Below, piece by piece: positions 2,061 through 21,695 of a DNA stretch of 64,000 nt (the first letter of the stretch is position 1; each line of letters opens with the position of its first letter). The DNA is from Sanderia malayensis. Taxonomy: Eukaryota; Cnidaria; Scyphozoa; Semaeostomeae; Pelagiidae. The stretch covers positions 3,162,001-3,226,000 of the forward strand of contig RQOL01000729.1 of NCBI GenBank assembly GCA_013076295.1. The letters run 5' to 3'. The position numbers and the translations under genes were made by a program. The notes below the pieces were generated by a model, which did not search any database, had not been told where the DNA came from, and saw nothing but the letters and a program-made list of their open reading frames with translations.

Positions 2061-3325
2061 ACTATGTGTCGTTTATGTGATATGAAACGTTCTAGAATGA
2101 AATTAGGTTGATTATTTGTTAAAGACGTTAATTATTGCACTGGTAGTTGTATAGTTCTGTCTGGGGCAAAATCAAACATTTGGGAGCAAAAAACGTACAA
2201 ACGGTGGTATCTTGGTATGCTAAGTGGCTACCAAAATATCCATATGAATACTCAAAAGGATAATTCTTATTACACGGTGACGGTTTCACGGAATTCTGAC
2301 TCTACGTTCGGACTACAAAATTGTTGATAAGCCCCCTCAAAAAATCCCCCACCCGCAAGCCGAACGTAGGGGTTTCGTTGGGGGCTTTGAGCAGTTATTG
2401 TGTGCCATTTTAGGCGAAGGCAGCAAGCTAACCCAATCTATGTGGGGTGGAAAGAGGCATGAGCATACGCAAGTGCAGCCCAGGAAGTGGGCCAACCCCA
2501 GGCGAGCGTAGCGAGCTAACCTATTTTACGTAGTGTTCAAGGAAGCGAATGCAGCACACAAAGTGCGCCAACCATAAGCAATAGGGCATGACGGAAGGTT
2601 TGCGGTTGGCGCACTTTGTGGGCTGTACTAGCTTGTGCTCATGCCCTTTTCAATGGTGTGCTCAGATATTATGGTGTGCCAAGGTATGGAACTTACAGGG
2701 GCAATAAATTTAGCATCTGAAATGAGCAAGGCATGTCCATGGCACTGTTTTAGTGGACTCAATCAAGATGAATGAATTTCGATCACAGAGCACTGGAACA
2801 TGGATTGCATTAGGAAATCAAGACATGATGCTGCAAGCAGCCGTCCCGATTCTCTCTTTTTTTACCAGAGCTGCATGGTGCTAAGGAAGATCTAATGATC
2901 CCTGTTTTTGAATTACAGATATAGTATGCATCACCTGAATTACTTAGTGAGGATGTATGTGAATACTCAAAATACATAGATTATGTAATGAATGAAATAT
3001 CTGCTGAAAAACCATCTTCTTTGGAGGATGCATGTGAACTTTATAGACAACTGATGCATATAATTGGGGATGTCAATTAGGCATGCTTTTATAACCATAA
3101 CCAACTTTTAAATGGTACATAGCAAAATCTTTACTGTTCCGATTCACCCAGATTATATAAGAATCTTTCTCAATAACAAACAGTTTCTTATTGTGTACAC
3201 CCTGATGATACAAAATGATTGTAGTTGAATAGGTTAGGAGAATGTCTTACAGCAAATAAAAATAGCAATAAAACAACAACAATAACTCTTTAAGTCTTCT
3301 TACAATGTAAAATAGCCATAAATCA
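2061..3325. other. No gene; hairpin at 2552-2625
   Basis: About 1.26 kb without a recognisable gene. It holds a 22-bp inverted repeat with one mismatch (2552-2573 with 2604-2625, 30-nt loop) whose arm contains CACAAAGTGCGCCAACC, the same string family as the dispersed repeat at 59.5-59.7 kb. Bases 2640-3325 show only short AT-rich frames. Confidence 0.6.
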
Positions 3326-3327
3326 TT

Positions 3328-4312
3328 ATGGTCTTCTAAATGCCTGAGCTTTACAAATAGCAATTGAAAACAGTGAAGAGAAATCAGCAAATGTTTTACA
3401 GTGTAGTACAGGAAGTGTTAGCTCCCCGGCACAAGCACTAATGATGGCAAAACATACTCTGTGGGAAGGATGTCTTTTCTGGCAACCATGGTCCAAAATT
3501 AGCTGGATGCTATCATCACTTCCATGAAGTGGTTTGCTTGAGGAGCCTATCAACCACTTCAAAACAACACAGGGACTAGGCTTTGTTTCCTCAAACCTTT
3601 CAGTAGCTAAAATTGTTTGTCCTGTTCTCCTTTTGTTTCAGAATAGTTCCATGCAATAGCTGACTCTGAGCTTTGTATACTATCCTGGTCATCTTCTAAG
3701 GGAATTGAATAATCTTGGAAGTGATCCACGATATGCTCTTCAACAGCCCTCCTTGTAGTGCTCTTTTCTGAATGCTTTGGGCAGATTAAAGAAAACACAT
3801 AATCCGCACCAACTTACCCACCTTTACAACTTTTCACAAAAAGTGGTTTCCAAAGATCTGGGTGTTTTTTCAACTCTTTCGCAAATGCTAGATCCTCCAA
3901 GCCAGCCATAAATGCTGGCAAATAAGGAAATCTTCTGCTCACCACACTGACCATCAAGGACTTCTCTATTTCAGGAAGATGATCCTTGTCAATTTTTCCG
4001 GTGTGTCCGAAATAATTTGGTCGATAATTCCATGGTCCATTCCATGATCAATAATGCAGACCTGGCTACCATCCAGATAATTTGAAAGATTATCTATTTT
4101 GTGCTGCTCGTGCTCAGTTAGGGCTTTGTTATCAAGGAGAGTCATGTCTGACAATGAGTTTACCAAGTGATCAAACACACACTCTGCCAAGAACGTTGGA
4201 GGAAGGCCACCTTGTACGAGGTGGCCTTCACCACTATATAAATGCATGACACTGTTTGGAGGTGGTTGAATTTGATCCAGAGTTCCTGCACCAACATCTC
4301 TCCGAAGTTTAC
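3328..4312 (-). pseudogene. HECT E3 ubiquitin-ligase domain fragment
   Basis: Reading the minus strand from 4312 down, the broken frames match the HECT domain of the large invertebrate G2E3-like family. First comes an N-lobe block beginning with HLVQGGLPPTFLAE (4312-3830), then a stop, then an acidic linker and a VLKWLIGSSS strand (3800-3540). The C-lobe follows, with ISACAGELTLPV (about 3435-3400), where the Cys sits at the position of the ubiquitin-accepting cysteine. HECT ligases take ubiquitin from an E2 onto this cysteine and pass it to substrates. The gene is broken by a stop near 3825 and at least two frame changes. At 4312 it is fused to a Gypsy reverse transcriptase, so its N-terminus was lost or displaced. 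It could be a host-gene relic, but a second HECT gene inside a transposon at 11.9-14.0 kb suggests it too came from mobile DNA. Confidence 0.7.
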
Positions 4313-6369
4313 GGAGAGATGTTGCTGCAGGAAAGTCCTTGATTACTTGAACTTTAGACTCTAAAGGTTGAAATTCCTGTTGCTGCGATGTGGTAGCCGA
4401 GAAATTCCAACGAAGAAACGCCAAATACGCATTTGGTTTGATGGATAACGATGCTGTATTCTGTGAGTCGTTGAAACAGCAGCTGCAGATGCATCAGATG
4501 TTCCTCTTCAGAAAAACTAGTGACTAAGAGATCGTCGATGTGGGCCAAAACGAAATCCAAACCGCGTAGAACTTCCTGAATGAAACGTTGGAACGTCTGT
4601 GCTGCATTGCGTAAACCAAATGGCATCCGGACGAATTCGTAGAGGCCGAATGGTGTTGTGATGGCCGTCTTTGGGATATCAGCAGGCTCGACAGGTATCT
4701 GATGGTATGCACGAACGAGATCCAATTTTGAAAAGATGCTTTTGTCGTGAAGAAATGAACTGAAATCTTGGATGTGTGGAATTGGATATCTGTCCGGTAT
4801 GGTGGCTTTGTTGAGGGTGCAATAATCGCCGCACGGACGCCAATCTAGGAACCATATGCAGAGGCGATGACCAGCTACTTTCGGATGGACGTATAATCCC
4901 GAGTTGAAGCATGTGTTCGAACTCTGCTTTCGAGATGGTGGCTTTATCTGGAGCTAGGCGATGCGAGCGACAAAAGACAGGTAGACCGTGAGTACGAATG
5001 TGATGTGTGATGTCATGTTTAACTGGGTGGTCTTTGTAGTTGGTGCGCGTGATAGACGGAAACTGACGGATGAGGTTTTGATATTTTGATGCTGAATCCG
5101 GAATGCTGAACATGAGGCCTGGTGACGAGAGTTAGGATTGGATGCCTCGAATCGCGAGTTACGTTGTTTCATCAATGAGTTTACGTTGACGAACGTCAAC
5201 TTTTAAGTTGAAATGAGCCAGGAAATTAGCTCCAAGGATAGCAGTTGGAATATCAGCCAAGATGAAAATCCAATGAAACATACGGCGAAGTCCGATATAA
5301 GGGCATAGATTGTTCACTGTCAGTTTGAATAGACGATTCGTTAACGGCTTGTAATTTTAAAGACGAGACGTTTTGACGAGCGGAACGAGTTGGCGGTAGA
5401 ACACTGACGTCGACACCTGTGTCGACCAAGAAACGTGTACCAGTGGTACAGTCGGTCACATAAAATAGACGACTTGTTTTTCTTGTTGCCAGGAGGACTC
5501 GTCGCCTCTAATCGCTGGCGTTGAAGTTTTCCGAAGCCGGTGTTTGTGGTGTGGCTGCGAAGGAGCATGGTGGATCGCACTTTTGCGTTTGCGAACCGAA
5601 TTTCCAATGATGCCAGCATTGCTAATGATACCAGAAGCTGAAGAAAAGAATTCCTGCTGCGACCACGTGGGTGCGAGATCTGTTGCATTAAGCACTGCAT
5701 CTGTGTTGTCAAGGCAGAAATCTGTGCTTGCAGGTTTTGGATGTCTCTCAACGCTGTAGGTGCGACTATTTTTGACATAGCGGAGACAGAATTGCCTGGT
5801 AGAGCGACTTCTAAAATTTTATCAGCCAACGAAGCCAGTTGCTCGATTGATACGTTGTCTGCTGATGATGCCAAAATCAACTGTGCATTGGTAGGAAGAC
5901 GTTGCAAGAACAATTGGCAAAGAATTTTGTCTTTTAAACGACTGTCGCCGAGAAGTTGTCACATTCGTCGTAATAATTGCGAAGTCTTCTTGTCACCGAG
6001 TTCCTCGGAGATCAGCAATTGATGAAGTCGCTTTTGCTCGGATGCTGATGTTCGTTTGATGAGTTCGGCTTTGAGATGCTCACATGGTTCATCTGCTGGT
6101 GGCTGTATGAGGAGATCACCAATTTCTTGTGCAATCTCTGGTGGCAACGAGGAAATTACGAACGAGAACTTTGTTGACTGCGTGGTTATTCGTCGTGTGT
6201 TGAACAAAGCTTCAACTTGCGCCAACCAAACTACCGGATCGTTTGGCCAGAATGGTGGTAATTTCACACTATGACCAGACACAGAAGGTAATTCTCGTGA
6301 TGGTTGTGTTGTCGCTGTAGCCTGTGAAGAACTTGCTGTTGGTGCACCATTGTTTTGAGGTTCAATCAT
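4313..6369 (-). pseudogene. Gypsy (CsRn1-like) gag-pol, truncated, copy 1
   Basis: Minus-strand LTR-retrotransposon polyprotein in several broken frames. Gag starts at 6369 and contains LPPFWPNDPVVWLAQVEALF, typical of this Gypsy lineage; it runs to about 5850. An aspartic protease follows with FLVDTG at about 5435-5418. The reverse transcriptase starts near 5010 ([20 protein letters not shown]) and continues to 4354 with [13 protein letters not shown] and AHIDDLL (the usual Y of the YxDD box is H). Homology ends at about 4313 with IKDFPAATSLRKLRR; the rest of RT, RNase H, integrase and the 3' LTR are missing. There are frameshifts near 5900, 5340, 4850 and 4370. The tRNA-Trp-type primer site upstream (6452-6468) supports the CsRn1 assignment. 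Confidence 0.85.
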
Positions 6370-6451
6370 GTTGGTTGAAAACCCGATTACGAAATAATTT
6401 AAAATGTATGAACTTGCCTGAATATGTTCGAATATGACGAGTGAAGAATGG

Positions 6452-6468
6452 TCACGTCGTGGTCACCA
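6452..6468 (-). other. Primer-binding site, tRNA-Trp type (Gypsy copy 1)
   Basis: On the plus strand TCACGTCGTGGTCACCA equals the 3' end of animal tRNA-Trp including CCA with one base different, so on the element's own (minus) strand it is the primer-binding site. It lies 83 bp upstream of gag. The same site recurs at 63959-63975 in the second copy. tRNA-Trp priming is known for the CsRn1 clade. Confidence 0.75.
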
Positions 6469-6795
6469 ATTTGGAATCACGGTTACTGTTCGTCGAATAG
6501 TTAGTGATAACCAATAATAAGGCAAGAATTTGCGTGTCTTTGCTTCAAGAATCGAGAGCAAGAAAATATTTGTGTGCATTGTGTGAAAACTATGATCTAA
6601 CTGATTCATTAAACTTTGTACAGAAAACTAACAATCAAAATAAAATCAGGTGCCAATATCAGAGGAAAGAGAATGGTAGGTGATGATGAGAAGTTATTTA
6701 TCGACAGGATGGATTAGGGAGAAAAGACGTTAGTGTAAAGGTGTTAGAATTTGGATTACAATTGTTGTTGTCAATGTTGATATTGAAACGCTACA
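6469..6795 (-). repeat. Probable 5' LTR region of Gypsy copy 1 (outer end uncertain)
   Basis: By position this must contain the 5' LTR (the element reads leftward), starting right after the primer site. The outer boundary cannot be fixed because the partner LTR is absent and I see no target duplication. No gene is seen from here to 7220. Confidence 0.35.
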
Positions 6796-7220
6796 AGGGG
6801 GCCTATTATAAAAGCATAGGTTGAGGTATCCTTTGTATTTGGAGCTAATGAAAACACAGGTGCAACTATTTATAATGACTGCACCCAATTACCATGTCCT
6901 TTTCACAAAACTTTGGAATATTTCCCTTTCCCTTGAAAAACAGAATTGGGTACAATTAACTCATTTTGAGATCAAAATACTCCAATTTTCAAAGCCTTTG
7001 GTCCCACAGCTCTGTTAGCATTATACAAAACAGCCTCTTGTTTACTTGATTGAACAAACTTTATAATGCTAAAGACAGTCAATTAATTTGTATACATATA
7101 TGTTTGGTTTGTAAATCCTTAGATGTCTTCTCAGTATAGCTTCACTCAAAACACAAAAATCATGGAGTATCACAAGACTTGCAATGCAAGTTAAGAGATG
7201 ATAAATTATTATGATTACAG

Positions 7221-7934
7221 ATTGAAAGGTGGTGGAGAGAGATACATACCAGGTTGGAGAAATATTTTAAGTGGCAGCTGAGAAATCTGCAGGAACAAGG
7301 ATTTTATGACCCCAATGATGAAACTGACAGGCATCTACTTGCGTTCATTTTCATTCCAGTAATTCAAACTGAAATGGACAGTTTTCAAGCCTTGTGGAAT
7401 TCACATAGAATAGGCAAACAAAAAAAATGCACAACTGCCTAAAGGGGTCCCTGATTACTTATATTCTTTCCCAGAACAATATGGTTCAGAAGAGTGTGGC
7501 AAGGTTATCTTAGGAAACTTTTTTATTTCAAAGAATTCATGTGAAATATATACATAATGATGCCTTGAAAAATTATGAATAGGATGATCAGAAGTTTCAT
7601 GTTTGTTCATGTTGTTGAAGTCATAACATTATTTTCGTAACTTTTGGTGTATCATATTTCTGCAACTTATTGCAGTTTATGGCTTCGTCTAAGCATTTAT
7701 TTAATTTTGTTCATTTTATTTGTTTTTATACTTCCAGGCATTCCTGTTACCAAGGAAGATCTCAATGAAGTAGCGAAGCTTTCAGGTGCGATGACATTTG
7801 GTAATGACTACTTGCCACAAAACATCACAGAAAAATGTGAAAGGATTATTCCAGATATTGACAGTGTCCATCCCCAAGATGCTGCAGAAACGTACATGTT
7901 TTTAAAGGCTAATTTTAATATAGAGTCACACTAG
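7221..7934 (+). pseudogene. IS3EU-like DDE transposase, C-terminal two exons
   Basis: Exon 7221-7503 follows an acceptor ATTACAG and begins IERWWREIHTRLEKYFK, the conserved Glu-containing end of the integrase-like catalytic core (third acidic residue). It continues with DETDRHLLAFIFIPVIQ and WNSHRI. A run of eight A at about 7420-7427 shifts the frame; after it the sequence reads on as LPKGVPDYLYSFPEQYG. The exon ends at AAG|GTTATC. The last exon, 7738-7934, begins GIPVTKEDLNEVAKLSG after CTTCCAG and ends at a TAG. The protein would cut and paste a DNA transposon. Exons with the first two catalytic Asp are not found upstream. It belongs to the same family as the transposase at 10.07-11.60 kb, but here the C-terminal region is better kept. 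Confidence 0.75.
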
Positions 7935-8015
7935 CTTTTTTTATTAGTTTGTGATCATATGCATATTGATACACTGTTTTATGAAGAATACACCTTCTTG
8001 TACTGAACAGGTTTT

Positions 8016-8993
8016 TCATAAAGAACTGTCTAATTTTGGCAAACCAAGAAGTTCACAGTAGTTACTACAAACATGTTCATCACAAAATGTTGTGATGGCC
8101 ACAATCAATAAACTACCAGCACAAATATATATTTCTTCTCCATTGTCATCCTGAAGCTGCACAGTTGCTATTTCAGGATCAGAAAGCAGTTTACCAGCAC
8201 CCCGAACATCTAATAACGTTATATGTCCTTTGGTTGTTTCATAGCTGAAATGGGAATTCAATGGGAGCTTTCCGCTGGAGTTTTTGGGCAATATATCTTG
8301 CTACTTCCTGCATTTGCACTTCTTTGTGTGCATGGCTTTCAAGATGGGCCCTTGTTTGATACCAGTATGTCACACGATGAATACGGCAAATTAAAGTGCA
8401 ATGCACATGCATTTTTGAGGTTGGCCAATGTAAGTTCATCGTAGTCAAAAGTCACAAACTTGTGGGAATTTGGACCGTATTCCCACCCAGCTACGTGACC
8501 CACCTCTCCGAACTATCCTTGCCATTTCTTCTTGGTTTAACGTGCAGAGAACACGGAGCCAGAGAGAGAACGATGTTGTGTTAACTCTGTATTGATGTAG
8601 ACTGACTGACTAAACTGAGAATTACATGTGTTTATATACAGTTGTTGAGATTAATCAGGCTTTACGTACATTAAAATAAATAACAGGAAGGGCTAGGTGA
8701 AGTGATGCTTGGAAAGAATGCAGGGTGTTATAATCGAGAGGAAGTAAAGCTGTGAGATTAATCACGAGAAACAAAATTGTAGAATGAATGAAGCTATTAA
8801 ATTTCACGACAAACTCTCTTGGCTGCAAGGGTCTGTACGTCTGCTTACTGTCAGGCTCGGATTCCAACTTCTGCACAATCACTTCATGTGGTGATGAACC
8901 AGTTTTGTTTTTCGAACGATTTGTGTCAATCTTTGTTCTTCTAGCTGCCATCTTTCCCTGCAACTCTTCCCACAACGCTTGTCGTTTCGGCAT
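8016..8993 (-). pseudogene. Unrecognised minus-strand gene, probably spliced
   Basis: Three blocks in the same direction look like exons. One is 8993-8811, opening with an ATG and MPKRQALWEELQGKMAARR, basic and helical. The next is about 8555-8340, containing DELTLANLKNACALHFNL and CDILVSNKGPSC. The last is 8300-8016, with GHITLLDVRGAGKLLSDPE and ending at a stop. Between the last two blocks the frame changes without an obvious splice pair, so the gene may be broken. I do not recognise the family. It converges on the IS3EU-like transposase fragment ending at 7934, in the same layout as the HECT gene in the complete IS3EU-like element, so it may be an accessory gene of another such transposon. 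Coding status rests on composition and arrangement only. Confidence 0.35.
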
Positions 8994-9100
8994 TTTGAAG
9001 ATGTAATGTGATCATGCGATGGATGTGATGTTATGTGATGTTATGTGACGTTTTGAAATACTTCATGTAGCATTTTGTTCCACGCTGCCCGAAAAGGATT

Positions 9101-9140
9101 CAGCGCTCTCATAATCCCGATAAGGATTATGAGAGTGCTG
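9101..9140. repeat. 17-bp hairpin
   Basis: Arms 9101-9117 and 9124-9140 pair with one mismatch around CGATAA. It lies in the non-gene stretch 8994-9416, just downstream of short ATGTGATGTT repeats at 9001-9050. It has no T tract and no gene upstream on either strand that it would obviously terminate; it could be a transposon end. Confidence 0.6.
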
Positions 9141-9210
9141 GGCTGCTTGCAGACATTTCAATGTCAAACACAACATTTTGATTTTAAAAACAATTTCAAA
9201 AGTTCCTTTT

Positions 9211-9330
9211 TTTAATTTATAATTTATTTTATATTTATTTTTAAGTTGTAATTTAGATATTTTAACTTTTTTTTAATTTCTAATTTATGTTATATTTATT
9301 TTTAATTGGTAATTTAGATTTTTTTAATTT
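9211..9330. repeat. AT-only tandem repeat, two 60-bp units
   Basis: Units 9211-9270 and 9271-9330 are about 85% identical and almost free of G and C. They precede the Helitron helicase fragment. No other structure is seen between 9141 and 9416. Confidence 0.75.
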
Positions 9331-9416
9331 TAAATTTTAATTTTTTAAAATAAACATTTTATTTGCATTGTCAAAATGATTTTTGATTATTTTTTTTATT
9401 TTTTATATTGATTAAT

Positions 9417-9653
9417 TTTTTTATGAGAGCGATGGGCCACCATACAGGAGTGATAAAACATTTTTTATTAAACACATTATATCAAGCTCTGAACAAATAC
9501 TTAAATAGTTTGCCAGGTGAATATCCACATGACATAAAAATTTTAAAAGTTGCACCTACTGGAAGAGCTGCATCTAATATAGGAGGAAACACTATCCATT
9601 CTGCATTTCAAGTTCCAGCTTCTCAAGGCTTCAATTACAAAGCATTAGATTGT
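9417..9653 (+). pseudogene. Helitron helicase, part 1 (P-loop region)
   Basis: This is the start of a Pif1-type (SF1B) helicase domain of a Helitron. FLLNTLYQALNKYLNS follows a degraded P-loop region, and KVAPTGRAASNIGGNTIHSAF is the next helicase motif. The Walker A GKT is not readable in one frame (a small indel at about 9445-9455). The frame is cut at 9653 inside the codon series for ALDC and resumes at 14923 on the far side of the IS3EU-like transposon, in the same frame once one copy of the GATTGT duplication is removed. Helitron helicases unwind DNA during rolling-circle transposition. The Rep half that should precede it is absent upstream. Confidence 0.8.
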
Positions 9654-9982
9654 TATGGAATCAGATAGTGGACAAAAGTCGAAATGAACAATGTGAATGA
9701 ATCTGTGTGTGATTAGTGAATCAATGTCTTGTGAATCGGTGTCTTGCGAGTGAATCCATGCGGTGTGAGTGAATCGGGGCAATGTGAGTGAAGCAATGTC
9801 TTGTGAATAAATGTGTGTGAATCAATGTACTGCGAATATTTTCCAGTGAATCAGTGTCTTGTGAACATGTTTGGGTGAATCTGTGTCTTGCGAAAATGTG
9901 TGAGTGAATCAGTGTCTTGTCGATCGGTGCAATCTTCCGTGTCTATGAATAACGGCTGATCACTGTGATTTTTATCAGTGAT
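9654..9982 (+). repeat. Left terminal inverted repeat of the IS3EU-like element
   Basis: Pairs with 14593-14922 over 329/330 bp at roughly 90-95% identity by eye. It is composed of GTGAAT-containing subrepeats and ends in CTGATCACTGTGATTTTTATC. Confidence 0.9.
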
Positions 9983-10068
9983 CGCATCACTAACCACTTC
10001 AAAGAATCCCCGCTACTTGTCATTTGATACGAATCAATCCGAAGGATACAAAACAATTGCAAAACATC

Positions 10069-11602
10069 ATGGCTACAGCAGCTGTTTCTCCACGCGAAAA
10101 TTTGAAGCATCACATAGGATCAATGTTGAGCACAATAATCCGAGAGGTGCAAGGTATAGATAGAGCAGTAGATAGAAATGCCATTGACCATAATTGCTAC
10201 AAACTACAGCAGATTATGACGCTTTTACTACATTGCAAGGAAACATGACCGGATTTTGTAAGCAGTGTCACAGTTTTGAATTTGATAGATGCGTACGATG
10301 TTTTGGAGCAGGAGGCACGACCGCAGCCAGACAATAATGCCCGCCTTGTCTCTCACAATACAATTGGAAGACCCGCATTGCACGTTCCAAGAGGAACTCT
10401 ATCAATGTATTTGAAATACGGCTTCAAGTATGTTAGAATTGGGGAGTCCTTTGGTGTGAGTGCCAGAACAATAACGCGGAGAGTTGAAAGCTACAGTTTA
10501 CAGCAAGAGGTTCAACGGCATACCACAATAATGGATGCAGAGCTGGATACAATTGTGTAAGAGGTTTTCAATGATTTTCCTAATTGCGGCATTTGCCGCA
10601 TGAGAGGATTTTTAAGAGCTAGGTCTTTTAAGGTGGAGTGGGATAGAGTTAGAAACTCCATGTGGCGCATAGTTCCAGAAGGAATACTTATAAGGACAAG
10701 CCTTTTAAATTTAGTCAACAGAAGACGTTATTCTGTTCCTGGTACGTTAGCCCTATGGCATATGAATGGCAACCACAAACTGATTCACGGCTTTTGTTCT
10801 GCACAGGTCTGTCGATAGGTATTCTTGAACAATTATGTACCTTCATTGCTCAACGTATAACAAAGCTGGGACGGTTCTCGAATTATTTATTGAAGCTGTT
10901 GAAACACACGGTTTGCCCTCCAGAGTCAGAGGAGACCAAGGAGGAGAAAATGTTAATGTTGCAATGTTCATGTTTGCTCATCCTTTAAGAGGTTCAGGCA
11001 GGGGCAGTTACATCACAGGTAAAAGTTTTCACAATCAGCGCATTGAGAGATTTTGGCGTGATTTACTTCACAGTTGTTTATTCTTATTCTATCATATATT
11101 CTACTAATTGGAGGAGTGTAAGCAGTTAGATCCCAATAACGACCTTGATCTCTATTGCCCGGAGTATGTATTTTTGCCCAGGATTAATCAACACCTGCAT
11201 TTTTTCCAAGATGGTTACGACAACCATCCTGTTCGAACAGAAGACAACCAAACCCCCCTGCAACTATGGATTCAAGGATTTGAAGACCATAGCCCACTGC
11301 AGGCAGATATGTTGACAAATCCGGAACTGTATGGTGTCGAATTGGGCCCACCAATCAATGGTGCGGTTGAAGAACAGATGAGAGAACAGGACGGTGTAAC
11401 AACTATTCCCGAAATTGACATGGCCATTCCCGAAAACATTGCAGTAAATGAAATAATAAATCCCCTGGCTCATTCAGATTCAAATGGAATCAACATTTAT
11501 CTGCAAATACGAGACTTTCTGTACGGGTTATTTCCTGATGACGATGGATTATTACGTACCAAAATTTTCTTATTTATATATTGCAGTGCATGCAGATACT
11601 AA
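10069..11602 (+). pseudogene. IS3EU-like DDE transposase (decayed)
   Basis: An ATG at 10069 opens MATAAVSPRENLKHH. A helix-turn-helix region follows (GRPALHVPRGTLSMYLKYGF to SARTITRRVESY, about 10369-10490), then the integrase-like core. LWHMNGNHKLI (about 10750-10785) is where the family has WHIDGNHKL, so the first catalytic Asp appears changed to Asn. The second acid lies in [12 protein letters not shown] (about 10930-10965) and the third in [11 protein letters not shown] (about 11032-11064). The tail has DPNNDLDLYCPEYVFLPRINQH and an acidic C-terminus ending at 11602. Lesions are TGA at 10246, TAA at 10558, a one-base insertion near 10795, TGA at 10826 and TAA at 11105. The gene lies entirely between the inverted repeats and converges on the HECT gene. 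It cannot now make full-length enzyme. Confidence 0.85.
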
Positions 11603-11852
11603 TACAATGAAACATTTCATGCTATAATTTATAACAGAACAGAAGCCTAGCAGTTCAATTCAATAATGAATTGAGCTTTAACTAGACAAAACAACAACAA
11701 TAACATAACAAGATGAATGACAGCATTGCGCCATTTTAAGATTGCAAACAAATAACTACTGAATAATAAAATAACAATAACTAGAACTAGAACTTGAATA
11801 TAGATAGCAAACATAACGAGAAAGCAAAAGTCATGCATACTAGCATCTTGTT

Positions 11853-13957
11853 TCATGGGTTTGGGAATCCCAAAGCACCATGCTTGATAGCAACATCCAT
11901 CGCATTATAAAAGGCATCTTTTGATCTATGTATTGTTGGCAAGCGTATAATCTGCATGCAAGCTGACGCTGTAAGAAATATATGTCGTTCTTCTTCTGGC
12001 AGATATTGAATAGATATGTTCTGCTTGTCCTGTCGTTGCGACTTGGAAATTCTTCCAGTAGAAAACATCATAAAAGCAGTTATCCACCCGTCGCCAATCA
12101 CTTCAGGATCCTTTACATCTTCATCGATGTACTCAAAAAACCAATCCAGAGCAACGTGCTCTGGTAATGTATTTGGAACTGTTGTCACAACGTTCTTAAA
12201 TTCCCTTGCGGACATCGGAATCCTCAGATTGTTGCCACTGTATATGATTTCTTGTATTAAAGCATTTTATGCATGCCAATCTTGTTCGTGATTGGCCAAT
12301 GACACAAATTTATAATTCGCCAATGAACATTGCTTGCGTCGGAACTGAAGAGCAGCTTATTAACATCTCCATCACTGCTACAAATATCCAGCTCCTCAAT
12401 CAGGTTGTGAAGAGAACCAGTAGCTGCATTCAAAGGTATGTGATGCTTGCATAGGTGAATTGATATGGTCTCCTTAGATTCTCCAAACATTGCCGCAACT
12501 ACACCGGGTACTATAGCTGGTATTGAATTAGGAGGACCTTATTGGATTAGCAGGTGTGCTATCAGCATCCCAGTGAGGCGCATGTAAAATAGCTTTGTAG
12601 AGTCTTTGATGGGAACTAAGTCCTCTTCGTTGCCCTCAAATAAATGCTGTGTCAACTCACTCATTGCCAGACGAAAGTACTCTGCAAACAAGGCTCCACC
12701 GTCTAGTCCATCTTCTTTTTCGAACCTGACCTCGAATGTTTTTTTGAAACTTGCCCCATCTTGAACCTGTCACTTGCAATAGCGGACAATATCATGCCAA
12801 ATATTGACCGTGTCAAAAGTTAATTCTTCATATTGATTGGACTGCCTTTTGCTAGCAAATATATCCAGCATTGATTCCAGATTATCGGTTCGCTGCTTCC
12901 TTGGTACTTCCATTTTGGGAATTGTCAGTAATGCAATTCGCAGCTTCTTCTAAAGTGTCCATTTTCTGTATAGCAGCATCAATGCTATCTGCTTTCACGT
13001 CAGGGAATAACATCTCTAATTGCAACCTCCATGTCCCCTGAGTTGTACCACTTGAACCAGGGATGGATGAAAATGCAGAATGTCCCATGTACTCATCTTC
13101 GTCACTCAAAGCTCTGTCTTCTACATGAATATTTGTGTTGCCTGTGGTGCATGTCATTAAATGTGCAATAGGGGACAAAAGTCGTGGGACACCCAGGATT
13201 TTAGCAAATTTTACACGCATACTTCATCCCCCTCCCCCCCCCCATAACAATGTTGTTTGTAGAGGCGGTGTTTTTCAATATCGCCGAAATTCTTTTGGCC
13301 CGACGACAAGAAAGGACTGGTGCACAAGACAACATTGTTTTGGGGGGAGTGGGGGGTCGCATTCTGCTCACAGAGAACAAAGTGTGCAGAAGCACAGCAT
13401 TATGGGATGAAATTTTCAGGTGTCCCATGGACTTTTGTCCCCTATTGTGCTTTCATCAATGGCAACAGAATTTCTTGGTTACCATTAGTGCTTTCTGTGT
13501 GAATAGATGAGTCAACTTCTGGAACAACTTTTGCTAGTGACATATTTGATTGCACGGGGCGAATGTAAACAATGGTAAAAGCGGCAACATTGTTGCCAAT
13601 GCACTCCATGGTGTAACAAGTACTTGACATATGAATGGCTATGAGGTTCGACTGCTTGCCGCCTTTTTTGGCCTTGAACAGGTCAATCGCCCTTTTCTGG
13701 GAACACTGCTTCGGAAAACCAGTTTCAAACACTCTCAGCACTTCATCATGAGTGCCATTTTTCGGAAATGATAATCTTTTCTTACCTAAGCCAGCTTGAT
13801 GCAAAAGGTTAAGGTGTTGTTGAGATGGAGCACGACTCTCATTCGTATTTGCCAGAGCACAAAACTCGTGGGACCAAGATTCTTTGCTGCTGCTCTGAGA
13901 ATTTAATGCTTTTTGTTGTTTCTTTGGTGGAGGAAACTGACGGCCACCACTTCCCAT
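11853..13957 (-). pseudogene. Transposon-borne CUE-HECT E3 ubiquitin-ligase gene
   Basis: Minus-strand gene of about 600 codons without the MITE. Order from the N-terminus: a basic start (GRQFPPPKKQQKALNS, 13957); a domain with AGLGKKRLSFPKNG and IVYIRPVQSNMSLA (13800-13540), seen in G2E3-like invertebrate HECT proteins; an acidic stretch; a CUE-type ubiquitin-binding motif (QLEMLFPDVKADSIDAAI, about 13020-12970); the HECT N-lobe with VRFEKEDGLDGGALFAEYF (about 12735-12680); and the C-lobe with MMFSTGRI and the catalytic-Cys strand TASACMQIIRLP (about 11970-11935), ending DVAIKHGALGFPNP. It lies wholly between the 330-bp inverted repeats of the IS3EU-like element, facing the transposase. Lesions include the MITE (13166-13447), stops near 12780, 12535 and 12255, and a frame change near 12870. 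Cys and lobe motifs are kept. Role inferred: ubiquitin transfer, perhaps acting on host silencing or transposase turnover; this last point is speculation. Confidence 0.8.
13166..13447. mobile_element. MITE, copy 1, inserted in the HECT exon
   Basis: A 282-bp element whose ends are perfect inverted repeats CAATAGGGGACAAAAG / CTTTTGTCCCCTATTG, flanked by TG on both sides (13164-13165 and 13448-13449). The inner part has long runs of C and G and an imperfect inverted repeat around CAACATTGTT. Removing the element and one TG joins the HECT frame (MKA directly to HLM) with no stop. It has no coding capacity. A second copy in the opposite orientation lies at 21454-21695. The 2-bp duplication and end sequence suggest a Tc1/mariner-type parent, which is not in this window. 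Confidence 0.92.
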
Positions 13958-14592
13958 ACTTGGAAACGCATTTCTGCCATAAATATGTTTTTAAGTTAGT
14001 ATCCGAATTCAGCTCTCGTGTGTTCTATTTTGTTAAAAGTATTACTTCTGTTATAACCCGCATGTACACATTCATTTATAAGAAACTTGGATCGGGGCCT
14101 AGTACTAAAAGTTTCTTAATTTGGTATGAAAATTTTGGTGTTTTAGTACTAAGAGTTTTGCAATTGGTTTCTTATTTTTTTGGGTTAAAAGTTGCCTTAT
14201 TGTTTTGAAGTTGAGCATTTTTGGGTCGAAATACATAAACGTAGATCGTCACAAAAACAGTGCAGATCAAAGTCAAAAGTTAAAATTGAATAGATTTAAG
14301 CTTACATAACATCCAACTGTTCACAAAGAAGTGCTTAAACGGTAAAATCATGTCCACTCCATCAATAATATTAAGGAACTTTGTATTCATCATTGACTTT
14401 GGACTTGGTTGTACCGAGTGATTTTATAGTTTCTTAACTTTTCTTGAACCTCATACTAGAGCTTCTTCAATTTGTGGCCATCGCTGTACTAGTTTCTTAT
14501 AAACCAGTTTCTTACACGAAAACGTGTAAAGTCCTACTTGTATACAAACCTGTCGGACTGAACATCCCTTTCACTACCTTACAAGTTACAAT
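13958..14592. other. No gene; upstream region of the HECT gene
   Basis: About 630 bp between the HECT start and the right inverted repeat. AT-rich, with several repeated AGTTTCTTA/TTTCTTATAA strings (14107, 14167, 14488, 14503) but no frame I can support. It would hold the HECT promoter. Confidence 0.4.
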
Positions 14593-14922
14593 ATCACTGA
14601 TGAAAAATCACAGTGATCAGCGATTATTCATAGACACGGAAGATTGCACCGATCGACAAGACACCGATCCACTCACACATTTTCACAAGACACAGATTCA
14701 CCCAAACATGTTCACAAGACACCAATTCACTGGAAAATACTCTCAGTACATTGATTCACGCACATTTATTCACAAGACATTGATTCACTCACATTGCCCC
14801 AATTCACTCACACTGCATGGATTCACTTGCAAGGCACTGATTCACAAGACATCGATTCACTAATCACACACAGATTCATTCACATTGTTCGTTTCGACTT
14901 TTGTCCACTATCTGATTCCAGA
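14593..14922 (-). repeat. Right terminal inverted repeat of the IS3EU-like element
   Basis: Reverse complement of 9654-9982, ending ...CTATCTGATTCCAGA directly before the GATTGT duplication at 14923-14928. Confidence 0.9.
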
Positions 14923-15782
14923 GATTGTGACAGACTGAATAAAATCCGAAAACAATACAGAAAATTGCAGATGATTTTTATTCATGAAGTTTCAATGGTT
15001 GGCAGCAAGTTATTTAACTTCTTGAACCTACATCTTCAACAAATCATGGGAAAGGAAACCCCATTTGCAGGTTCAAGTGTAATAGCAGTTGGTGATTTGT
15101 TTCAACTTCAACCATTCTTTGACATATGGATTTTTGACACATCTGCAGAATATGGTCCTTTGGCAACAAACATCTGGCAAGAATATTTTCAAATATGTGA
15201 ACTGCACACAATTATGAGGCAGAAAGATGATAAAACCTTTCCAGAATTATTAAATCGGTTGAGAGAAGGCAATGAAACAAAAGAAGATGTAAACCTTTTG
15301 AAAACAAGAACTATTTCAAACAACAAGTTTTCCAACATAAATTTGACAGGTTATACACATTTGTTTTTGACAAATGCTGCAGTTAATGCCACTCTACCTT
15401 TCAAAACTCAAACAGACCCAGCATAATTTGGGTTAAATCTACATCTGGTCACATTGGAAAAAATGGAAGATTGCAATATAGATCACTCAGATCACACCAA
15501 ATTGACATTTCATGGACACCTGTATTTGAAGTTAGCAAACAATTTGTAATTGGAAAATCAGGTCATTTTCAATATATGAGATGTCAGTTTCTACTGAGAC
15601 AAGCAGCTGCAAAAAGTATTCATATATGTCAATGTGATACATTGCAACAGTTGGTAGAAAATTCTGCATCAAGGTCAACTGAACATATCCATTATGTTGG
15701 TCTCAGTAGAGTTGTAAATAAGAATGGTTTATATATTGACACATTCAATGAACAAAAGATATCTGTCAGTGAGAAAGTTTAA
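14923..15782 (+). pseudogene. Helitron helicase, part 2
   Basis: Continuation of the frame cut at 9653. It reads LNKIRKQYRKLQMIFIHEVSMVG (written here across two motifs), where the Walker B residues normally read DE but are HE, so the metal-binding Asp appears lost. Next come GDLFQLQPFFD, LREGNETKEDVNLLK and a stop at 15424. After a frame change the C-terminal helicase motifs continue from 15471: FLLRQAAAKSIHICQ and HIHYVGLSRV (motif VI), ending SVSEKV at 15782. Downstream, in the same direction, is the endonuclease domain of the same Helitron. With two lesions plus the transposon insertion it is not functional. Confidence 0.88.
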
Positions 15783-21453: not shown

Positions 21454-21695
21454 CAATAGGGGACAAAAGTCCCTGGGACACCTGAAAATTGCATCCCATA
21501 ATGCTGTGCTTCTGACTCCCCCCAAAACAATGTTGTCCTGTGCATCAGTCCTTTCTCGTCGTCGGGCCAAAAGAATTTCGGCGATATTGAAAAACAACGC
21601 CTCTACAAACAACATTGTTATGGGGGGAGGGGGGATGAAGTATGCGTGTAAAACTTGCTAAAATCTTGGGTGTCCAGGACTTTTGTCCCCTATTG
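21454..21695. mobile_element. MITE, copy 2
   Basis: A 242-bp copy of the MITE at 13166-13447 in the opposite orientation, with the same perfect 16-bp ends and a TA duplication (21452-21453, 21696-21697). It lacks about 36 bp found in copy 1. Confidence 0.92.

Follow-up and report, generated by a model that had tools for sequence, protein, structure and literature searches.

HECT ubiquitin-ligase genes beside the transposases of IS3EU-type transposons in the jellyfish Sanderia malayensis

The element in the window

The stretch of DNA that we analysed, hereafter the window, comprises 64,000 nucleotides of contig RQOL01000729.1 of Sanderia malayensis (assembly GCA_013076295.1, positions 3,162,001 to 3,226,000). 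At positions 9654-14922 it holds a DNA transposon with two convergent genes, one for an integrase-like transposase of the IS3EU type and one for a HECT ubiquitin ligase. Judging from its reading frames, this copy is dead, a fossil. It very probably belongs to a large and diverse IS3EU-type group whose members in this genome are two-gene elements with a conserved association, a confidence that covers the association in this genome and not the target of the ligase. Such an element would pair a DD36E integrase-like transposase with an opposite-strand HECT-type E3 ubiquitin ligase, in which a C2HC, UBZ-like finger and a CUE-like stretch often precede the HECT domain. Comparison of the loci establishes, at the level of sequence, the association of the genes, their place between inverted repeats, their largely parallel descent, and a HECT fold and an acceptor cysteine that are conserved. 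The features of the locus are, in window positions:

9402..9653, + strand: PIF1-like helicase of the host, 5' part of the interrupted frame (PF05970, PIF1, positions 30-82, 2e-5, slightly below the cut-off)
9648..9653, no strand: target site duplication (TSD), left copy GATTGT
9654..9983, + strand: left terminal inverted repeat (TIR), starts TATGGAATCAG, contains 29-bp sub-repeats
10069..11530, + strand: decayed IS3EU-type transposase (helix-turn-helix-like part, PF24764 core), by Pfam and alignment to relatives
11856..13987, - strand: decayed HECT ubiquitin-ligase gene, convergent to the transposase, by Pfam and alignment
11856..12218, - strand: HECT C-lobe, acceptor-Cys codon 11958-11960 (TASACMQIIRLP), position counted along the reading frame
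12269..12892, - strand: linker and HECT N-lobe with in-frame stops, by alignment
12930..13031, - strand: CUE-like stretch WRLQLEMLFPDVKADSIDAAIQKMDTLEEAANCI, by alignment to relatives L015 and L017 (PF02845 is sub-threshold in relative L030)
13168..13445, no strand: nested 278-bp miniature inverted-repeat transposable element (MITE) in the zinc-finger part of the HECT gene, ends ATAGGGGACAAAAGT, flanks TGTGCA/TGTGCT
14593..14922, - strand: right TIR, outer end TCTGGAATCAG on the - strand
14923..14928, no strand: TSD, right copy GATTGT
14929..15426, + strand: PIF1-like helicase of the host, 3' part of the interrupted frame (PF05970 positions 97-221, 2e-10)

An earlier note, made from the letters of this DNA, had the limits of the element right, including its 330-bp inverted repeats (301 of 330 positions match in an ungapped count starting at the outermost bases; the terminal arms at 9656-9973 and 14603-14920 are 94% identical over 318 nt) and the perfect 6-bp GATTGT duplication. 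It had also described a helicase frame, ascribed there to a Helitron, that is rejoined on removal of the element. Flanks rejoined at a single TSD copy indeed gave one stop-free frame across the join (...FNYKALDCDRLNKIRKQYRK...) and, since the two pieces match PIF1 and join without a stop, it is a PIF1-like helicase frame that the element splits. The left end is TATGG and the right end TCTGG on the other strand, one base away from TAYGG; we counted these as IS3EU termini (TA..TA, TAYGG..CCRTA), and a relative with inverted repeats of the same family (L035) has TATGG at both ends. The 6-bp TSD of IS3EU was found in the window (GATTGT), in L035 (CGATAC), and as 10 further perfect non-palindromic duplications. 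The 29-bp sub-repeats make up part of both inverted repeats and are perhaps multiple transposase-binding sites. The flanks of L015 and L016 hold a frame with an EHIHYV stretch resembling the helicase frame around the window element. An Rfam scan of the window gave nothing at gathering scores.

Both reading frames are broken relative to the intact L015 and L017, so that of the "complete" transposon described earlier the ends stood and the genes did not. The transposase is recognisably IS3EU-type, as had been proposed (PF24764, E 7.8e-32 at 10829-11104; HTH_Tnp_4, 4e-4, upstream). Its frame is interrupted by four stop codons and shifts near 10,790, and Asn replaces the first catalytic Asp. In the HECT gene, two or more stops fall within the frame, about 120 bp are missing, with a change of frame, zinc-finger cysteines are gone, and the MITE is nested inside. 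The suggested profile check failed in the window itself, where the C-lobe reaches only 0.0018 (18.4 bits) against PF00632, below the cut-off of 23.9 bits; alignment to intact relatives makes the HECT assignment clear (E 4e-58 and 8e-61). The acceptor-cysteine strand TASACMQIIRLP is still present, as had been noted. The CUE motif fared less well: the CUE-like stretch alone has no Pfam match in the window, and the family comes near the PF02845 cut-off only in L030, a weak match (E 6e-4, 19.8 bits vs 21.1). Neither HECT hidden Markov model (HMM) reached E <1 in positions 16001-64000 of the window.

The MITE has a second copy at about 21456-21694, in the opposite orientation (228 of 238 aligned bases identical, 41 gap positions). 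The ends of both copies share GGACAAAAGTC with the ends of the IS3EU element, an 11-mer that occurs exactly six times in the window vs 0.04 expected, and the MITE may have been mobilised by a related transposase.

Pairing of the two genes in the genome

Pairing was scored as a HECT match within 6 kb of the transposase, among the matches listed (150 of 572 candidates were scored in one listing). A first tally found HECT near 54 of 129 transposase clusters, 51 of them convergent. With a second HECT query and a PF24764 list the count was 83 of 157 (77 convergent, 5 divergent, 1 on the same strand; median gap 947 bp), vs a mean of 17 and a maximum of 25 in 200 random placements on the same contigs. 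The rise with the second query indicates that Pfam and a single query miss divergent HECTs.

All 30 transposase loci that we read carry a HECT-like gene: the window, 20 loci (L015-L034) that were picked as pairs or likely pairs and whose 20/20 is thus no test, and nine (L036-L044) picked since earlier searches showed no HECT beside a good transposase core. A convergent HECT-like gene was present in all nine. L038 and L040 score above the Pfam HECT cut-off and L039 below it; L041-L044 reach 1e-9 or better with a wider HMM that includes L036 and L038-L040. The genes are convergent in 29 of the 30 loci, and divergent in L024, where they lie inside ends with TSD GTTTAT. Among 24 whole loci, 13 have both genes enclosed by inverted repeats that start with TAT and are flanked by a 6-bp TSD, which in 11 is perfect and not a palindrome; as a control, the finder gave a match in 12 of 20 loci vs 1 of 380 mismatched left-right pairings. 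The TSDs differ among loci, which implies separate insertions. L015 and L016, near-identical and with the same frames in their flanks, probably represent a single insertion in two haplotypes, and L026-L028 form one family. Inner "perfect TSDs" reported by TIR finders (TACGTA, ATGCAT, TTTAAA, AAGCTT) were discounted as palindromes within the inverted repeats.

Full-length copies devoid of HECT, which the earlier note had named as contrary evidence, did not appear among the loci read. L035 (1,679 bp, with window-type inverted repeats) has no frame >88 aa between stops and no HMM match better than E 0.1 for either gene; the copy without HECT is thus also without a transposase match. The idea of HECT as standing cargo gains support from the nine search-negative loci and from the largely parallel trees described below.

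Some loci have a structure of their own. In L032 a second TIR pair at 2390-9836 (TACGG.., TSD CTCTAT) surrounds a transposase and HECT element together with remnants of another similar transposase, i.e., the elements are nested. L026 and L027 are near-identical elements 16 kb apart (contig C436), with TSD GATTGC on both sides of L027 and on the right side only of L026, an arrangement as after tandem duplication or recombination. A divergent PF24764 match in a 467-aa frame, at C777:595158-595697 and C781:1044906-1045445, has no HECT match within 6 kb and is a candidate domesticated transposase.

Conserved features of the two proteins

PF24764 matched five relatives at 2e-76 to 8e-81. The transposase alignment keeps D, D and E with 36 residues separating the last two (DD36E), as in the integrase-like DDE transposases of IS3EU; in the window copy the first D is replaced by Asn. 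The HECT domain comprises both N-lobe and C-lobe. The acceptor Cys occurs in 25 of the 25 rows having that column, the window included (L037 has no aligned residue there), and persists in rows whose closest other row shares as little as 24% HECT identity. The HECT fold and acceptor Cys were also matched structurally, at 15-21% identity in the structural matches. Because fold and acceptor Cys are kept, the ligase is likely to work.

The family also has a C2HC, UBZ-like finger (C-x2-C...H-x3-C) that the earlier note did not mention, with four residues nearly invariant in alignment A3. At a limit of E 1, PF18574 is matched by 11 of 15 homologues (best E 4.8e-7), and zf_UBZ reaches only 0.014-0.058, in L019 and L020. 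Together, the finger and the CUE-like part suggest a putative contact with ubiquitin-tagged proteins.

Parallel descent and selection

HECT and transposase identities are correlated across pairs of loci (Mantel r 0.65, p 1e-4; 21 loci, near-identical copies removed, transposase partial for L039 and L040). In both trees, which cover 18 loci, the groups (WIN,(L015,L017)), where WIN is the window copy, (L021,(L022,L034)) and (L036,L037) recur. Their support is moderate, and the deepest rows account for three of the four longest HECT branches. These patterns indicate that the HECT gene mostly moved together with its transposase.

Between families, in pairs >50% identical and with synonymous sites near saturation, the proportions of nonsynonymous (pN) and synonymous (pS) differences were 0.29-0.33 and 0.78-0.86 for HECT, and 0.24-0.36 and 0.74-0.89 for the transposase. 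Ratios between close copies ranged from 0.28 to 1.92, frameshifted rows (L023) adding noise. Such ratios fit constraint on active lineages together with decay of copies.

Relatives in other animals

Transposase homologues (120 listed of 1,172) include named proteins of Rhopilema, Hydractinia, Clytia, Porites, Acropora, Dendronephthya, Amphimedon and Saccoglossus. Three of 14 distinct HECT source sequences recur by size among the 120 listed transposases, a match in size being no proof of identity. For example, the Rhopilema genes LOC135686279 (HECT) and LOC135686290 (transposase) come from source sequences of equal size, 15,264,025, which does not prove that they are the same sequence. P0008 and P0021, with 4,392 bp in common, match the HECT and the transposase of L021 at 88% and 90% identity. 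The Rhopilema HECT homologue P0147 is named "G2/M phase-specific E3 ubiquitin-protein ligase-like", in agreement with the guess, made in the earlier note, that invertebrate HECT-like genes were spread by such transposons. Viral contigs searched with the transposase alignment gave eight stretches matching a pattern and none matching a relative.

Strength of the association and alternative explanations

Several observations weigh against a conserved association. The searches found no HECT at 74 of the 157 transposase clusters; eight of these were read (L036 having later gained a search match) and all eight have one, 66 are unread, and many clusters are thus judged by searches only. L036 and L037 have no Pfam HECT match, although a custom HECT HMM gives E 1e-16 and 6e-13, and L041 is weak with the first, narrower HMM (E 0.0014), though 1.6e-12 with the wider one. 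Clear ends with a TSD were not found in 11 of the 24 whole loci. Strict nearest neighbours are the same in only 8 of 18 loci: L025 groups with L026, L029-L031 and L033 by HECT and with the L015/L018 group by transposase, while L029 pairs with L031 by HECT and with L030 by transposase, so that some exchange between elements is possible. In three close pairs, some ratios approach or exceed 1 (HECT 0.70-1.05, transposase 0.51-1.92). In other animals, the co-location of the two genes was matched by size only, and in a further set of HECT homologues 0 of 19 source sequences recur by size among the 120 listed transposases.

That the window copy alone took up a host HECT gene in a single event, or received a HECT insertion that is independent and separately bounded, could be suspected from the pair of MITE arms inside the gene and from the 74 of 128 HECT clusters of the genome that have no transposase match within 6 kb, cellular HECT genes presumably included. 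We consider this very improbable. Relatives with other TSDs carry the same gene in the same convergent place, and in this genome the loci read and the correlation of HECT and transposase identities contradict it. The HECT tree largely follows that of the transposase, so the phylogenetic sign of a host capture that the earlier note had specified is not seen. An independent insertion was rejected, the inner inverted pair being that of the 278-bp MITE within the gene and not the boundaries of the gene. A gene without a role for the element, kept by descent alone, is improbable too: ratios near 1 between some close copies and the many broken copies would agree with such a passenger, but the between-family excess of pS over pN in HECT and the acceptor Cys kept at identities as low as 24% would not.

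Possible roles of the ligase

The ligase would be active and would work in trans; for copies like L035, which lack both genes, the transposase has to do the same. In the most likely mechanism, to which we give somewhat less than an even chance, it would ubiquitinate members of the transposition complex, either the transposase or proteins bound to it, and control their amount or their removal from DNA. Our preference for this role rests on the gene's keeping, for the most part, to a single transposase lineage, in contrast to the TET genes of fungi. Nearly as likely, and still doubtful, the ligase would mark host silencing or repair proteins for turnover, as an anti-host factor kept because the host represses the element. 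The modules beside HECT do resemble ubiquitin-binding ones, and other transposons carry enzymes thought to counter silencing, e.g., TET/JBP in fungal IS3EU (PMC12730594). According to the same paper such genes cross superfamilies in fungi, whereas HECT, as judged among IS3EU-type loci, mostly stays with one transposase lineage.

More broadly, we tentatively propose, while leaning slightly against it, that HECT is an obligate second gene of animal IS3EU transposons, with a ubiquitin step built into the transposition cycle, and that many invertebrate genes of the HECT and "G2/M phase-specific E3-like" kinds either belong to such transposons or descend from them by domestication. A constant ubiquitin-ligase companion of the transposase would link transposition to protein turnover, and its presence suggests that these elements regularly rely on protein tagging during their life. 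It would offer a route to ask if ubiquitin clears eukaryotic transposition complexes or removes host defences, and it could account for some of the HECT genes annotated in invertebrates, cnidarians among them.

Comparison with known systems

In some DNA transposons a second protein accompanies the transposase, as in Harbinger (transposase and Myb-like protein) and RAG1-RAG2; there it is not a HECT ligase. Plant MULE elements carry ULP1-like protease genes, i.e., an enzyme of the ubiquitin/SUMO system, which is a protease and not a ligase. HECT ligases such as NEDD4L, E6AP and AREL1, as well as Rhopilema P0147, share the HECT fold and acceptor Cys with the protein described here, which differs by its low identity in the structural matches, its N-terminal C2HC finger and CUE-like stretch, and its being borne by a transposon.

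The IS3EU superfamily is itself known; a HECT ligase gene in its members was not previously described in the literature searched. In the open-licence literature we found no description of HECT genes in IS3EU or other DNA transposons and no paper joining IS3EU with HECT; an earlier mention is possible in Repbase, Dfam or subscription papers. HECT passages in PMC9926710 and PMC8195603 are unrelated to transposon-borne HECT. The window element has in common with IS3EU/GingerRoot transposons the TA..TA ends, the usually 6-bp TSD and the integrase-type DDE transposase given in the main text of PMC10045372, where neither HECT nor ubiquitin occurs. The nearest parallel is with the TET-bearing IS3EU elements of fungi, which belong to the same superfamily and have termini TAYGG..CCRTA and a 6-bp TSD (main text of PMC12730594, where HECT and ubiquitin do not occur). 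By that account, these elements have an alpha-kinase and TET/JBP in place of HECT, and their TET genes pass between superfamilies; the alpha-kinase gene lies opposite the transposase, as HECT does here. By analogy, the place of the second gene may be filled by different protein-modifying enzymes.
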